Source: a virus. Taken from it: DNA of 36,951 bases. The position numbers were made by a program, and so were the translations under genes. The stretch is taken from IMG/VR virus record IMGVR_UViG_3300017967_000078, positions 1 to 36,951 of that record. One strand, 5' to 3'. Position 1 is the stretch's first letter; every line of letters starts with the position of its first letter. The notes under the pieces are model-generated. The model made no database searches. It was not told where the DNA came from and was given only the letters and a program-made list of their open reading frames with translations. Below are positions 32,214 to 36,951 of this stretch, piece by piece.

Positions 32214-32636
32214 ATGAAGGATAAATTTAGCGAGTTAAATGATACTTTTGAAGTGGAAGCAGAAATTGTGAAACCAGAAACTGAAAAGAAAGAACTAGTA
32301 AAACCATCACAAAAAGAAGATGTAACTAAAGATTATGAGTACACAAGGGGCAATCTTTATTCAATTATTGAGAAGGGACAAGAAGCATTAGATTGTGCAT
32401 TGGAACTTGCTCAAGATGGTGGTCAACCAAGACAATATGAGGTTGTTGGTCAGTTAATTAAAAATGTTGCAGATGCAACAGACAAGTTAATTGATTTGCA
32501 AAAAAAATTAAAAGATTTAGATGCAGAGCAAAAAGGTCCTACAAATGTGACTAATAATGCAATGTTCTTTGGATCTACTGCTGAGTTGTCTAAAATGATT
32601 AAGGCACAAACTAAAAACCTAAAGGAAGATAAATAG
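32214..32636 (+). CDS. 16: gp16 terminase small subunit
   Basis: A 140-residue homologue of the T4 DNA-packaging initiator gp16 (164). A disordered acidic N terminus is followed by a helical hairpin core: NLYSIIEKGQEALDCALELA, then PRQYEVVGQLIKNVADATDK and LIDLQKKLKDLD, the conserved central coiled coil. The C terminus (NNAMFFGSTAELSKMI) is typical of cyanophage gp16. It recognises phage DNA and stimulates the gp17 motor. It begins two bases after gp15. Its stop overlaps a late-promoter octamer, and gp17 does not follow within the window. Confidence 0.9.
   Translation: MKDKFSELNDTFEVEAEIVKPETEKKELVKPSQKEDVTKDYEYTRGNLYSIIEKGQEALDCALELAQDGGQPRQYEVVGQLIKNVADATDKLIDLQKKLKDLDAEQKGPTNVTNNAMFFGSTAELSKMIKAQTKNLKEDK
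32628..32635 (+). promoter_or_regulatory. T4-type late promoter for the post-gp16 block
   Basis: GATAAATA overlaps the gp16 stop codon. Initiation near 32641 gives a leader of about 16 nt before ATG 32657, similar to the promoter-to-start spacing at gp8 and gp25. It implies late co-expression of the following genes with the virion proteins. Confidence 0.65.
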
Positions 32637-32656: not shown

Positions 32657-34831
32657 ATGTCCCGTAGTTTTGAGATAGACCCCCAAAAATTCAGAAGAGA
32701 CGCTCGTGCCGCAAAGGTGAGAAACCTTGTGAAGGGTGGTGCCACTGAAGGAGAAAGGATGGCAGCACAGAGAAAAACAACTGGACCTGCTTTGCCAAAA
32801 GGATCAATTAAAAAGGGAATGAATCCCAATGAAGAAGTTGTCCCTGGTCTTAAAATAGTTGACATCATTCTTGGTGAGCAAAAGTGTGGCAAAGGTATGT
32901 ACTACTGCTACACAGATAAGAAGTGCAAAAAGATACCTGAAGGTTTAAAAATGACCGCCAGATTTAGTGGTGGAGATAAAGAACCAGAGGAAGTTGGAAT
33001 TGATACTCCAACTCAAAATGGTGGAGACACTAATGGTAAAGGTGGTGATTTTGGTGAAGGACTTTCTATTGAAGATGCTTTTGGTAATAAGTTCATGGAA
33101 GTAATTGATCTGATCAAACCAGAAGATGTTGTTGAGAAGTGTTGGGCGGGTTATACCCAAAAGGGTCTTAAGAAAAAAGGTAAAAAGATGGTCCCTAACT
33201 GTGTTCCAGTTGGTGAAGAAAAAGATCATGAAGTATCCATGGCACAATCACAATTAGCAAGTGCTGCTAAGGATATTAAGTCACTCAAAAAGAGTCTTGG
33301 TAAAAAAGAAAAAAATCTCCCTGCATGGATGCAAGCAAAGATTACTGATACTGAGCACAACATGAACGCTGCAGCAGGTTACACTAACAAAGAGGAGACC
33401 GAAATGCAAGAAGCAAAAGTAGATGCTGGATTAACTGACAAAGAAAAAGCAAAAGTTAGAACTGCAAGACAGGGTTATGCAGGTGCAGAACTTCGTGTTG
33501 GTGGGAATGTAAGTTCTCATACTGGAAATGTTGCAAGAAGAGCAGCACATAGAAAAACAGATGATATGAATAAGGACAAGAAAGATGTCCGTAGAGGTAA
33601 GACTAGTGGACCTCAGTTCCAGGGAAAAACTGGAGCAGAGCGTCTCGCTAAGGTGAAATCGGAACTTGGTGAGGCAGTAAGACTTCCATCAGAATTTGGT
33701 CATATTATGGCAGTTGTTGTGATGTGGAGAGGTAGGTCTTACCATATCAGAATGTTCTTCCCCCAGGCAAAGATGCCAACTAAAAAGGAAGCACAACTAG
33801 AAATTGAAAAGGTATATCCTGGTGGAAAAGTTATTAGTGTAGTAAGAAGCGAACTCCCAAGTCAATCTGCTCCAATCAACTCACCTTTGTTTAAGGTGAC
33901 TAAGGAAGAGAAAGAAATGGGTTGTCCCAAATGTGCTGGTAAGTGTGGTAAAGGATGTGAATGTGAGTGCCATGGTGAAGAGAAAGAAGTTGATGAAGCA
34001 GCAGGTGAAAAAGATGCTTGCTACAAAAGGGTAAAATCTCGTTATAGTGTATGGCCAAGTGCATATGCATCAGGAGCATTATCTAAGTGTCGCAAAGTCG
34101 GTGCTGATAATTGGGGCAACTCTACCAAAGAAGAATTTGAGTATGAATTGAATGAAGGATGGGTGGCAAATACTGCTGCTCAGTATTTCATTGAGCAAGG
34201 TCTTAACGAAGAAGGTGTAGCAATCCTCACCGAAGAGATGGGTCTTGATGATTTTGTGGAGTTTGTATTTGATCTTGGTGAAGAGACCATGCTCACAGAA
34301 GCAAGAGCAGGTGGTGTTAGGGTTGAACCAGTTACCGCAAAGGGAAAACCTTTTGCTAAGGGCAAACCAACAGGTAAGTCTTTAGAGAGACTCCGCAAAC
34401 TAAAAGCAGAGAGAAGACAAAAAGAAGCAGACGCATCTGCAGCAAAACCTTCAGGAATGAAGGCAGCACTTCAAAGTCAGTCTAAGACTGCTAAAAAGAG
34501 AGATCAAGCAGTTAGAAGTGCCAAGAGTCAACAACCTAAGAAGAGAGGCATTCTTGATAAGGTTGCTAAGCAAGTTCTAAAGGGTATTGATCGCCATAAT
34601 GCTGCAGTGGCGAAAGCAAAGAGTGATATTAAGACTACTAAAAAACTTGCTGGAGAAACTGGTAAAACTATTGCGAAAGCAGCAGCAGTAACTCATGAGG
34701 CAGGTCGTCGTGCTGGCGAATCTAAAGTTGGACAAGCAGTTAAGAAGGTGGGTGGTGCTGCAATTAAAGCAGGTGTTGCAAAAGCTAAGAAAGATATTGA
34801 GTCTTTAAAAAATAAAAAAGGAGACAAGTAA
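32657..34831 (+). CDS. Mosaic, probably processed internal virion protein (724 aa)
   Basis: No single family covers it; it looks like joined micro-domains. In order: CGKGMYYCYTDKKC (C77, C84, C90); CWAGYTQKGLKKKGKKMVPNC (C162-C182), a motif frequent in T4-like phages; a helical Lys-rich segment; a domain at about 340-400 (HIMAVVVMWRGRSYHIR, YPGGKVISVV) paralogous to the 106-residue gene at 36006; a Cys knuckle (C423, C426, C430, C434, C436, C438); KDACYKRVKSRYSVWPSAYA (from about 453), another widespread phage motif; and a Lys/Arg/Ala-rich tail (550-724). gp21-like sites (M/L)xE before A occur at 252, 339 and 548, near domain borders. A DNA-associated head-interior protein is my inference; an assembly scaffold is an alternative. 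Confidence 0.75.
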   Translation: MSRSFEIDPQKFRRDARAAKVRNLVKGGATEGERMAAQRKTTGPALPKGSIKKGMNPNEEVVPGLKIVDIILGEQKCGKGMYYCYTDKKCKKIPEGLKMTARFSGGDKEPEEVGIDTPTQNGGDTNGKGGDFGEGLSIEDAFGNKFMEVIDLIKPEDVVEKCWAGYTQKGLKKKGKKMVPNCVPVGEEKDHEVSMAQSQLASAAKDIKSLKKSLGKKEKNLPAWMQAKITDTEHNMNAAAGYTNKEETEMQEAKVDAGLTDKEKAKVRTARQGYAGAELRVGGNVSSHTGNVARRAAHRKTDDMNKDKKDVRRGKTSGPQFQGKTGAERLAKVKSELGEAVRLPSEFGHIMAVVVMWRGRSYHIRMFFPQAKMPTKKEAQLEIEKVYPGGKVISVVRSELPSQSAPINSPLFKVTKEEKEMGCPKCAGKCGKGCECECHGEEKEVDEAAGEKDACYKRVKSRYSVWPSAYASGALSKCRKVGADNWGNSTKEEFEYELNEGWVANTAAQYFIEQGLNEEGVAILTEEMGLDDFVEFVFDLGEETMLTEARAGGVRVEPVTAKGKPFAKGKPTGKSLERLRKLKAERRQKEADASAAKPSGMKAALQSQSKTAKKRDQAVRSAKSQQPKKRGILDKVAKQVLKGIDRHNAAVAKAKSDIKTTKKLAGETGKTIAKAAAVTHEAGRRAGESKVGQAVKKVGGAAIKAGVAKAKKDIESLKNKKGDK

Positions 34832-35554
34832 ATGAAGACATTCTCCCAATTTATTACAGAAGCAACATCTAGAAAACCGTCTGTTCAAAGAGCTCCTGAT
34901 ATGTCTGCCCGTGCTAGGCAACAACGTCAAGCACGAGATGATAGAAGACAAGCAGCAAGAGACCGTGCCGATGACAGAGCAAGGGCAGGTATTGATGCAT
35001 TAATTGGTTCAGATGATGAGCGTGCTGCTGCAAAGCAAGCAAGGCAAAATCAAGCAGCAAACCAAAAGAAATTAAGACAAAAAGCAACTCGTGACCGCAT
35101 GGCAGCAGCGGCAGAAAGGCATGGACTTGGTGAGAAGATGAATCTCGCTAAAGCAGATATGGGTGATGTTATCAAAGACTTCAGAACGTCTGATGCTCCT
35201 CAATTTAAAGGTAAGTCAGACAAAAAAATCCGCCAAATGGCAATTGCCGCTAAATTGGAAGCAGAAAGAGGTGACCAAAAAGAAGATTGGCAAAAGGTCA
35301 ATCGTAAAGATAAAACAGATGGATTAAGTCAAAAGGCGGTCAATGCTTATCGTAAAGAGAACCCAGGTTCTAAATTGAAGACTGCTGTCACAACTAAACC
35401 TTCTAAACTTAAGAAGGGGTCCAAAGACGCTAAGCGTAGATCTTCATTCTGCTCCAGGATGAAGGGTATGAAGAAGAGACTGACCTCTGCAAAAACTGCA
35501 AGAGATCCAGACTCCAGAATCAATAAAGCACTTCGTCGTTGGAATTGCAACTGA
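34832..35554 (+). CDS. Basic protein with capsid-targeting-like leader
   Basis: A 240-residue protein with an AAGGAG ribosome site, starting right after the preceding stop. Residues 1-11, MKTFSQFITEA, closely match the T4 internal-protein capsid-targeting leader (MKTYQEFIAEA as I recall it), with ITE before A as a gp21-like cleavage site. Residues 20-100 form an Arg/Ala/Gln/Asp-rich helix, probably coiled coil. The C-terminal third has a phage-typical module: GLSQKAVNAYRKENPGSKL, KRRSSFCSRMKGMKKR and a final ALRRWNCN. The protein is strongly basic, consistent with contact with packaged DNA. Packaging into the prohead is inferred from the leader; a scaffold role is the alternative. Confidence 0.75.
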   Translation: MKTFSQFITEATSRKPSVQRAPDMSARARQQRQARDDRRQAARDRADDRARAGIDALIGSDDERAAAKQARQNQAANQKKLRQKATRDRMAAAAERHGLGEKMNLAKADMGDVIKDFRTSDAPQFKGKSDKKIRQMAIAAKLEAERGDQKEDWQKVNRKDKTDGLSQKAVNAYRKENPGSKLKTAVTTKPSKLKKGSKDAKRRSSFCSRMKGMKKRLTSAKTARDPDSRINKALRRWNCN

Positions 35555-36009
35555 TGAAAACATTTAACCAGTTTATCTCAGAAGCAAGTGAGGGTGGTTC
35601 TCCATATAGAGAATATAAACCCAAACCACAACCAAAACCTTCTCAACCTCCAGAAGGATTTGATGCTTTTAAGAAAAAATACTTGAAGAATAAAAATGAT
35701 GAAAAAATCGAAGAGGGGCGCAAAAGTGGTGATTATTCTTTGCGTGACTGGTTTGCTAAGAGTCGCTCTTCTGATGGCACCCCTGGTTGGGTTCAACTGG
35801 GTGGTAAATACGCAGGAAAACCCTGTGCAAAACAACCAGGACAAAAAACCAAACCAAAGTGTGGTTCTTCAAAAATGAAGCGCAACCTCTCTAAAAAAGA
35901 AGAGGAGAGTGCATTTAGAAGGAAGAACAAAAAAGACAAGAATCCAAATCGTAAAGGTAAACCAATTAACGTTGCTACTGAAGTTAAAAAGAAGAGGAAG
36001 AAAAAATGA
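35554..36009 (+). CDS. SLRDWF-module protein with capsid-targeting-like leader
   Basis: The start is ATG 35554, overlapping the previous stop by one base (TGATG); an upstream TTG at 35539 would add only five residues of the neighbour's sequence. 151 residues. The leader MKTFNQFISEA repeats the pattern of the gene before and gives ISE before A. After a Pro-rich linker (KPKPQPKPSQPPEG) comes SGDYSLRDWFAKSRSSDGTP (SLRDWF at 62-67) and GWVQLGGKYAGKPCAKQPG, then PKCGSS: a module seen in many T4-like phages and some large eukaryotic viruses (I recall a DUF5872-type label but am unsure). The tail is extremely basic, ending KKKRKKK. Probably a DNA-binding internal protein. Confidence 0.75.
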   Translation: MKTFNQFISEASEGGSPYREYKPKPQPKPSQPPEGFDAFKKKYLKNKNDEKIEEGRKSGDYSLRDWFAKSRSSDGTPGWVQLGGKYAGKPCAKQPGQKTKPKCGSSKMKRNLSKKEEESAFRRKNKKDKNPNRKGKPINVATEVKKKRKKK

Positions 36010-36326
36010 AAAACTTTAAACAGTTTATGTCAGAGTCAGTAAATATTTCTGGTGACTTTAATGGCAACCTTTATATCAACTCCCAACAAGAACAACCCCA
36101 AGAAGTTGGTGAGAGTTATGTTGCAGATGTAATGTGGAAAGGAAGTCTATATAGACTTGAGATGGTTACTAAAACTGGTCTACCATCAAAAAGAGAATTA
36201 GGTGAACAACTCCAGCAAGAATATCCAGGAGCTATTGTACATAACATTTATCCAGTAGAAGAAAAGAATTTTAATATTAAAAATGCACAGAGGTATCATC
36301 CCTCAAAACTAGAATGGATTGATTGA
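36006..36326 (+). CDS. Small protein with capsid-targeting-like leader (106 aa)
   Basis: The start overlaps the previous stop by four bases (ATGA), so the two are probably translationally coupled. Residues 1-11, MKNFKQFMSES, are a third version of the leader, with MSE before S as the possible cleavage site. A short beta stretch (NISGDFNGNLYINS) and a Gln-rich linker follow. Residues 38-88 (YVADVMWKGSLYRLEMV, then PSKRELGEQLQQEYPGAIVHNI) align with residues about 348-398 of the 724-residue protein upstream. Function unknown; shared leader and shared domain tie it to this cassette. Confidence 0.72.
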   Translation: MKNFKQFMSESVNISGDFNGNLYINSQQEQPQEVGESYVADVMWKGSLYRLEMVTKTGLPSKRELGEQLQQEYPGAIVHNIYPVEEKNFNIKNAQRYHPSKLEWID

Positions 36327-36329
36327 TTC

Positions 36330-36951
36330 ATGGCACAGTGGAATAAGAATACACAAGACTTTCTAAACCAAGAGAGAAGTCTCTTTGAGGTTTATAATAT
36401 TGCTGATCACTGGGGAAACCAGACAGACTGGAGACCTCAGTTTTCTGACAATAACAGACTAAAGGTTGCTCCCTTCCAAACAGTTTTCTTCAATACTTTC
36501 CAGTATGGTAAGGAGACTGATGTTTGGGATGAGAGTGTAGTTGGTGTTGGAACTGCTACTCATAATCCCAATTCCAGTAATGTGGTTATGGAAGTTGGTT
36601 CTACTGCTGGTAGTAAGGTTGTCAGGCAGACTAAACAGGTAATGAGATATATTCCTGGTAGACCAGCAACTCTCGCATTTGCAATTCGTCTAGAGACACC
36701 ACAAGTCGGTATTCGTAGAAGATTCGGATTGTTTAATGAGACCGATGGTGCTTACTTTGAGGATGATGGAGGCACATATTCTTATGTAATTCGCAGCAGT
36801 GCAACTGGTATCACTACAGAAACAAGAATAACCAGAGAAAACTGGAATGGTGAAAAGTTTGATGGTAATGGATACACTGGTGTAACTGCTGATGCTACAA
36901 AACAGCAGATGATTTCCATTAACTATGAATGGTATGGTGCAGGTGGTGTAA
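36330..36951 (+). CDS. Virion structural protein, 3'-truncated by the window
   Basis: The frame is open from ATG 36330 to the window end, 207 codons with no stop. It begins MAQWNKNTQDFLNQERSLFE and continues with QTVFFNTFQYGKETDVWDES, then RQTKQVMRYIPGRPATLAFA, GIRRRFGLFNETDGAYFEDD and NWNGEKFDGNGYTG. I recall this arrangement from T4-like marine phage proteins annotated as virion structural or fibre-like; the aromatic and Gly-rich beta pattern fits a jelly-roll or receptor-facing domain. It lacks the MKxFxQF leader of the three genes before it. It follows the preceding stop by three bases. It is not gp17, whose Walker motifs are absent from the visible part. Confidence 0.7.
   Translation, partial: MAQWNKNTQDFLNQERSLFEVYNIADHWGNQTDWRPQFSDNNRLKVAPFQTVFFNTFQYGKETDVWDESVVGVGTATHNPNSSNVVMEVGSTAGSKVVRQTKQVMRYIPGRPATLAFAIRLETPQVGIRRRFGLFNETDGAYFEDDGGTYSYVIRSSATGITTETRITRENWNGEKFDGNGYTGVTADATKQQMISINYEWYGAGGV

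Follow-up and report, generated by a model that had tools for sequence, protein, structure and literature searches.

In phage T4, the first ten residues of the internal protein IPIII suffice for its incorporation into the head (review of L. W. Black's work, PMC9026906), and mutagenesis has traced targeting chiefly to residues 4 and 7 of this leader and processing to residues 8 and 10 (PMC9026906, section 2.6), the gp21 protease cutting after (L/I)xE. Fusions have further shown that the T4 leader packages foreign proteins, and IPI and Alt are known to be ejected (PMC3012670, PMC9026906). The T4 leader as given in the preliminary description of the locus studied here, MKTYQEFIAE, is indeed the exact start of both ipII and ipIII in the T4 record. 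A looser pattern run on that record recovers these two genes and gp61.1 (MKTFKEFIKE); the latter, an uncharacterised protein of 54 aa with a good leader match (NC_000866, 18966-19130, minus strand; locus L046), may be an unrecognised T4 internal protein.

Several papers on cyanophages have reported metabolic or regulatory enzymes in virions and left undecided whether these are cargo or contaminants. The cytidylyltransferase, a cyanophage core gene product, was detected in virions of S-SM1 and was not detected in those of S-PM2 (PMC3037559), and the virion cytidylyltransferase has been discussed as possible cargo or possible contamination with no targeting signal being invoked (PMC10665884). 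Kinases and an NMNAT were also found in the virion of S-CBWM1, a non-T4 cyanophage (PMC10665884).

The window, that is, the whole stretch of DNA analysed here, is a 36,951-bp IMG/VR fragment of a marine T4-like cyanophage; its nearest named relatives include the Synechococcus phages Sf-FS3, S-CAM9 and S-SCSM1. Inspection of the ORFs and synteny with S-SCSM1 place gp25-like, gp6-like and very large baseplate proteins at its start; these are followed by gp13/gp14-like neck proteins, gp15 (PF16724) and the gp16 small terminase (PF11053), and the fragment ends with a 724-aa ORF, three leader-bearing genes and a virion structural protein cut at the contig end. Given the location of the small terminase gene, we assign the cluster to the head-gene region after gp16. 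The features of this region are:

32214..32636, plus strand: small terminase (gp16; PF11053, E=6.7e-7; phrog_445)
32657..34831, plus strand: mosaic protein of 724 aa without an N-terminal leader
34831..35131, plus strand: extra segment of about 300 bp with the gene 1 leader and basic N-terminus, seen in the DNA alignment with the related loci L392 and L386
34832..35554, plus strand: gene 1, 240 aa; leader MKTFSQFITE/A (the slash follows residue 10), an N-terminal basic region (~90 aa) and, at the C-terminus, a DUF6321 module
34832..34861, plus strand: gene 1 leader with F4, F7, I8 and E10; predicted gp21-type cleavage E10/A11
35554..36009, plus strand: gene 2, 151 aa; leader MKTFNQFISE/A, then a basic SLRDWF/Cys module (phrog_727, phrog_3477)
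36006..36326, plus strand: gene 3, 106 aa; leader MKNFKQFMSE/S, then an acidic domain (phrog_1742)
36330..36950, plus strand: virion structural protein (phrog_1645, head and packaging), incomplete at the contig end

The product of the last of these shows 66% identity to gp190 of S-SZBM1, which was detected by mass spectrometry (MS). No gp21 prohead protease gene is present in this 37-kb fragment.

The preliminary description held that three consecutive genes share a T4-like leader, diverge completely thereafter and encode strongly basic proteins. The ORFs starting at 34832, 35554 and 36006 do begin with such a leader, and their mature parts are mutually unrelated. A degenerate leader pattern has exactly three matches in the window, all on the plus strand, and its reversed control has none there. 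Aromatic residues occupy positions 4 and 7 in all three leaders, and the (L/I)-x-E motif at residues 8-10 reads ITE in gene 1 and ISE in gene 2, but MSE in gene 3; the residues responsible for targeting and processing in T4 are thus kept, save for the methionine in place of L/I at position 8 of gene 3. The gene junctions are tight (TAA/ATG before gene 1, TGATG before gene 2 and ATGA before gene 3); for gene 2 the ORF list offers an earlier in-frame TTG at 35539, and the ATG at 35554 overlaps the preceding stop. As to charge, the mature parts of genes 1 and 2 are strongly basic as claimed (pI 10.9 and 10.2), whereas gene 3 has an acidic product (pI 5.1, net charge about -4), which rules out that all three proteins are basic.

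Gene 1 carries its DUF6321 domain at residues 159-237 (Pfam PF19846, E=1.2e-14), and this C-terminal module shows 64% identity to S-CREM2 gp137 and 52% to S-SCSM1 ORF29, both of which are MS-detected virion proteins. The 724-aa ORF and gene 1 lie in the same frame with a single stop codon between them, and in L386 and L392 a single ORF, of 832 and 944 aa respectively, covers the 724-aa protein together with the C-terminal portion of gene 1. At the DNA level these relatives have 27-33 bp in place of the ~300-bp segment of the window, at the edge of which lie the TAA/ATG junction and, just upstream, a ribosome site, AAGGAGA. Because leaderless forms are commoner (just 3/80 gene 1 homologues bear the leader, most homologues being parts of leaderless proteins), fission accompanied by gain of the leader would be the most economical origin of gene 1, the alternative being a fusion with loss of the leader in the relatives. 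We also considered, and did not adopt, a reading of the fused 832- and 944-aa relatives as polyproteins cut by gp21; several candidate (L/I)xE sites are present in the 724-aa protein (e.g. LTE/A at residues 546-548), and it is possible that the prohead protease cleaves this protein into fragments. The 724-aa ORF is itself a mosaic of Cys-rich and basic modules, and the same modules occur reordered in MS-detected virion proteins.

The gene 2 module is likewise found in the MS-detected virion proteins S-CREM2 gp160 (38% identity) and S-SCSM1 ORF29 (44%), such that the modules of genes 1 and 2 recur in shuffled arrangement among virion proteins detected by MS. Its homologues bear the leader in 18/80 cases and are mostly parts of leaderless proteins. 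Given that S-SCSM1 ORF29 and S-CREM2 gp137 are packaged without an N-terminal leader, and that most homologues of genes 1 and 2 are leaderless, the leader is not the sole route into the virion.

Gene 3 resembles a module inside the neighbouring 724-aa ORF. Among its viral-contig homologues 76/80 carry the leader by our rule, and the remaining four align over residues 1-106; in 75 homologues F/Y4 and F7 are each present in 75/75 and E10 is invariant, with position 8 being I, L or M (I or L in 62/75). One locus, L198, has the gene 3 domain with a different leader segment. The predicted structure shows a beta-beta-alpha-beta arrangement at residues 36-83 (mean pLDDT 61, core about 80), and its best PDB matches, YkzG (RNA polymerase epsilon) and T7 Gp2, are RNA polymerase-binding proteins, albeit with non-significant scores (E about 1, all >0.5). 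On this model gene 3 could bind host RNA polymerase; given those E-values and a moderate model, we treat the link as a lead only. The gene 3 homologues of S-SCSM1 and S-SZBM1 were not detected in either virion proteome.

The three starts are adjacent and alike at the DNA level, as might be expected if one gene start had recently been duplicated, with no targeting function attached to it. However, a strict leader pattern recovered at least 123 leaders from IMG/VR viral contigs, on about 30 unrelated families, against one match for a permuted control (same codons, ATG start) and none for the reversed pattern in the same contigs. Since the leader is also that of the T4 internal proteins, and leader proteins are enriched in virion proteomes (see below), a duplication lacking any function is scarcely credible, and in its simple form it is refuted by the wide recurrence. 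Among the matches listed, mature parts of sufficient length fall into 30 clusters without detected mutual similarity, with the NMNAT/cytidylyltransferase cluster contributing 68 members. Other leader proteins include a SAM lyase (L102; PF23780, E=5.8e-14), DUF6267 (E=7.5e-107), a DPBB lytic transglycosylase (E=4.2e-9), a GNAT-like protein of S-CRM01 and small basic proteins, along with homologues of genes 1, 2 and 3 (L079, L107, L120, L068, L091); ten matches lie on one 87-kb contig. The tagged set is therefore not limited to small internal proteins, many of its members being enzymes. For three leader proteins (L142, L156, L068) an ADP-ribosyltransferase identity was set aside as a lead only: the Pfam ART-PolyVal match (E=0.024) does not reach the cut-off, and the AlphaFold model is too poor to use (pLDDT 42).

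In the NMNAT-like family the rule recognises the leader at 77/80 loci; of the other three, two show it displaced by one residue (MKNLFQFLGEA) and one is truncated. A search of this protein against solved structures returned nothing at E up to 1, and the label 'NMNAT' therefore rests on published annotation and a Pfam CTP_transf_like match. The S-CAM9 homologue (L172, about 1411-2584) is an exception to the rule in that it keeps a DGHG-like module and has no obvious leader. A short DGHGxW-like module following the leader is common to NMNAT-like proteins, the S-CREM2 kinase gp14 and S-CREM2 gp12, and represents a second conserved header (L011:10579-12846, minus strand; L011:7704-10313, minus strand; L007:38819-40048). 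At L221:1501-2109 (plus strand) a leader-bearing protein retains the DGHG module and the C-terminal region of the NMNAT family but not its catalytic core. S-PM2 has no strict leader match; its cytidylyltransferase match (NC_006820, 104256-106752) is split over about 2.5 kb with internal stops, as if interrupted. S-CBWM1 shows neither a leader match nor a relative of the leader-bearing NMNAT, and hence its packaging must differ.

The conservation within these families bears on whether the leader is cut. An uncleaved N-terminal docking helix recruiting its bearers to some other virion or replication site would accommodate the departure of M8 and S11 in gene 3 from (L/I)xE/A, the short helix modelled at its residues 4-8 with low confidence, and internal leader-like motifs such as RFASFMAEA at residues 18-26 of S-CREM2 gp12 ('Cas9', found in the virion). 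In contrast, a set of 60 non-redundant NMNAT homologues, gathered by their catalytic core only, shows no variation at F4, F7, E10 or A11, has L at position 8 in 59/60 and leaves position 9 free; moreover, gp23 of the three phages with proteomes has FLAE/A, LLTE/A and ILTE/A near residue 55, i.e. the cleavage motif of the leader. The preliminary description had looked to co-occurrence with a gp21-type protease as a check, and gp21 (PF03420) is indeed found in 10/17 leader-bearing contigs, including 6/7 of those of at least 100 kb, with a prohead protease being annotated in S-CREM2, S-SCSM1 and S-SZBM1. We accordingly regard an uncleaved docking helix as quite improbable; cleavage after E10 is likely in genes 1 and 2, with less certainty in the case of gene 3. 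Regarding gp12 (L011:7704-10313, minus strand), its annotation as a CRISPR-Cas9 protein looks doubtful, as it has no Pfam match.

MS-defined virion sets were matched to the genomes of S-CREM2 (52 proteins; PMC10665884 Table 3), S-SCSM1 (45; PMC9602691) and S-SZBM1 (30; PMC9146016) using a leader rule derived from the T4 residue roles, in which the aromatic residue may stand at any of positions 3-5, a latitude introduced once part of the data was known. Ten annotated starts fit this rule: gp6, gp14, gp30, gp136 and gp154 of S-CREM2, gp140, gp191 and gp192 of S-SZBM1, and ORF30 and ORF91 of S-SCSM1. Their products are in the virion in 6/10 cases versus 127/719 (17.7%) of all proteins (P=0.003; 0.0045 when stratified by phage), with the rule partly widened post hoc; the DNA pattern fixed beforehand gives 4/7 (P=0.02). 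The leader thus holds up as a predictor of internal proteins, a use suggested in the preliminary description, and this enrichment supports the assignment of the leader type: the leader of the window genes is very probably a T4-type capsid-targeting sequence.

The proteins behind these counts include the three 'regulatory' virion enzymes of S-CREM2, namely the gp6 SAM hydrolase, the gp14 APH/ChoK-like kinase and the gp154 cytidylyltransferase, all MS-detected and all with the leader; looser forms are seen on the MS-detected gp13 and gp136 of the same phage. In the other phages the leader is present on the virion NMNAT of S-SCSM1 (ORF91; PMC9602691), on S-SZBM1 gp140 (MRFRQFIIEA), also in the virion (PMC9146016), and on the S-SM1 cytidylyltransferase (MKKFSAFLNEA). 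S-CREM2 gp156, a leaderless virion protein, shows 42% identity to the leader-bearing L214. S-SZBM1 gp192, a leader-bearing DUF6321 protein, was, like the gene 3 homologues, undetected in virions; the S-SZBM1 set has only 30 proteins, and Lys/Arg-rich or small proteins are easily missed. A small virion protein of S-SCSM1, ORF93 (L007:41626-41835), has a leader-like RTFKEFLEYIE at its C-terminus. A further reading is that the enzymes in virion preparations are lysate contaminants and the leader match a coincidence; contamination was raised as a concern by the S-CREM2 authors themselves (PMC10665884), and just a handful of leader proteins have been measured; nevertheless, the cytidylyltransferase is present in four independent virion proteomes with the leader each time, and the SAM hydrolase and kinase of S-CREM2 both bear it, which makes contamination very improbable.

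Taken as a whole, the best explanation, which we consider highly probable, is that genes 1-3 encode prohead-packaged proteins of a T4-like cyanophage that uses a portable capsid-targeting leader. The aromatic residues 4 and 7 would dock the newly made protein onto the scaffold core of the prohead, after which a gp21-type prohead protease would cut behind E10, so that the mature protein remains inside the DNA-filled head. The leader would act as a portable address on unrelated cargo, such as the NMNAT-like cytidylyltransferase, SAM lyase, kinases, nucleotidyltransferases, DUF6267 and small basic proteins; its occurrence on about 30 unrelated families is nature's equivalent of the T4 fusion experiments. 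Gene 1 may have arisen by the splitting off of the DUF6321 module of the neighbouring virion protein (or the relatives by fusion), the junction in the window carrying a stop codon, a ribosome site and a leader.

Many of the cargo proteins would probably be ejected with the DNA, and IPI and Alt provide an analogy that makes such delivery into the host plausible. A competing reading limits the leader to directing proteins into the prohead core for use in scaffolding or DNA condensation, the mature proteins staying in the head or being degraded with no delivery of effectors. The basic character of genes 1 and 2 and of 20/28 cargo families is what one expects of DNA-bound internal proteins, and we know of no effector role for T4 IPII and IPIII. 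Yet a scaffold role hardly accounts for the many folded enzymes that bear the tag (cytidylyltransferase, SAM lyase, GNAT, DPBB), and ejection is documented for T4 IPI and Alt (PMC9026906, PMC3012670); a purely scaffolding or condensing role is, in our estimate, somewhat unlikely.

Since the same tag is found on enzymes previously detected, and left unexplained, in purified cyanophage particles, the leader probably marks particle-carried cargo. We tentatively propose, as a possibility still short of an even chance, that in T4-like cyanophages and their marine relatives it is a general tag for a pre-made set of effectors, maybe including gene 3, that enters with the DNA and acts before phage gene expression, and that gain or loss of the leader converts virion-protein modules into proteins packaged on their own. 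If this is true, such a set would comprise a SAM lyase acting against restriction and an NMNAT acting against NAD+ depletion, plus kinases, ADP-ribosyltransferase-like proteins and nucleotidyltransferases; this suggests that enzymes of NAD+ synthesis and anti-restriction may arrive with the phage DNA. For abundant marine phages, in which the majority of such genes have a hypothetical annotation, the leader predicts which proteins are internal and probably ejected, and, being readable from sequence, it offers a simple criterion for telling cargo from contaminant. As in T4, it could also be exploited for loading reporters into the heads of cyanophages. While the tag itself is already known in T4, its broad use on enzyme cargo in cyanophages, accounting for the virion enzymes, appears to be new: an open-access literature search, which cannot by itself prove novelty, found nothing linking the leader to cyanophage enzyme cargo, and for cyanophages and capsid targeting together it found only a T4 review citing a cyanophage paper.

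Among known systems, the giant phages phiKZ, 201phi2-1 and SPN3US are alike in that a gp21-related prohead protease strips propeptides from many head and ejection proteins; unlike the leader described here, the cleavage motif in phiKZ is S/A-x-E, and we found no F4/F7 leader reported for giant phages. T4 Alt, an ADP-ribosyltransferase, and IPI, a restriction inhibitor, provide the precedent of a head-carried, ejected enzyme and anti-restriction protein, which is paralleled in cyanophages by the leader on a protein of the SAM lyase family and, with weaker support, on ADP-ribosyltransferase-like proteins; the Alt propeptide differs in having 7 residues. The cyanophage core cytidylyltransferase T4-GC190 (NMNAT-like) has the same leader in the same phage group and is MS-detected in S-SM1, S-SCSM1, S-CREM2 and S-SZBM1 virions; unlike genes 1-3, to which it is non-homologous, it is a catalytic enzyme, often with the DGHG module after the leader. 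Compared with T4 IPII and IPIII, the cyanophage system differs in the acidic nature of gene 3, in the presence of enzymes among the cargo of the group, and in that relatives carry the C-terminal part of gene 1 within a larger protein that has no leader; Pfam and PHROG searches (DUF6321, phrog_727/3477, phrog_1742) detected no homology of genes 1-3 to IPI, IPII or IPIII beyond the leader. What the window genes share with IPII and IPIII is a ten-residue N-terminal leader with F/Y4, F7, I/L8 (M8 in gene 3) and E10, borne by unrelated and mostly basic mature parts, and a gp21-type protease in the phage group.
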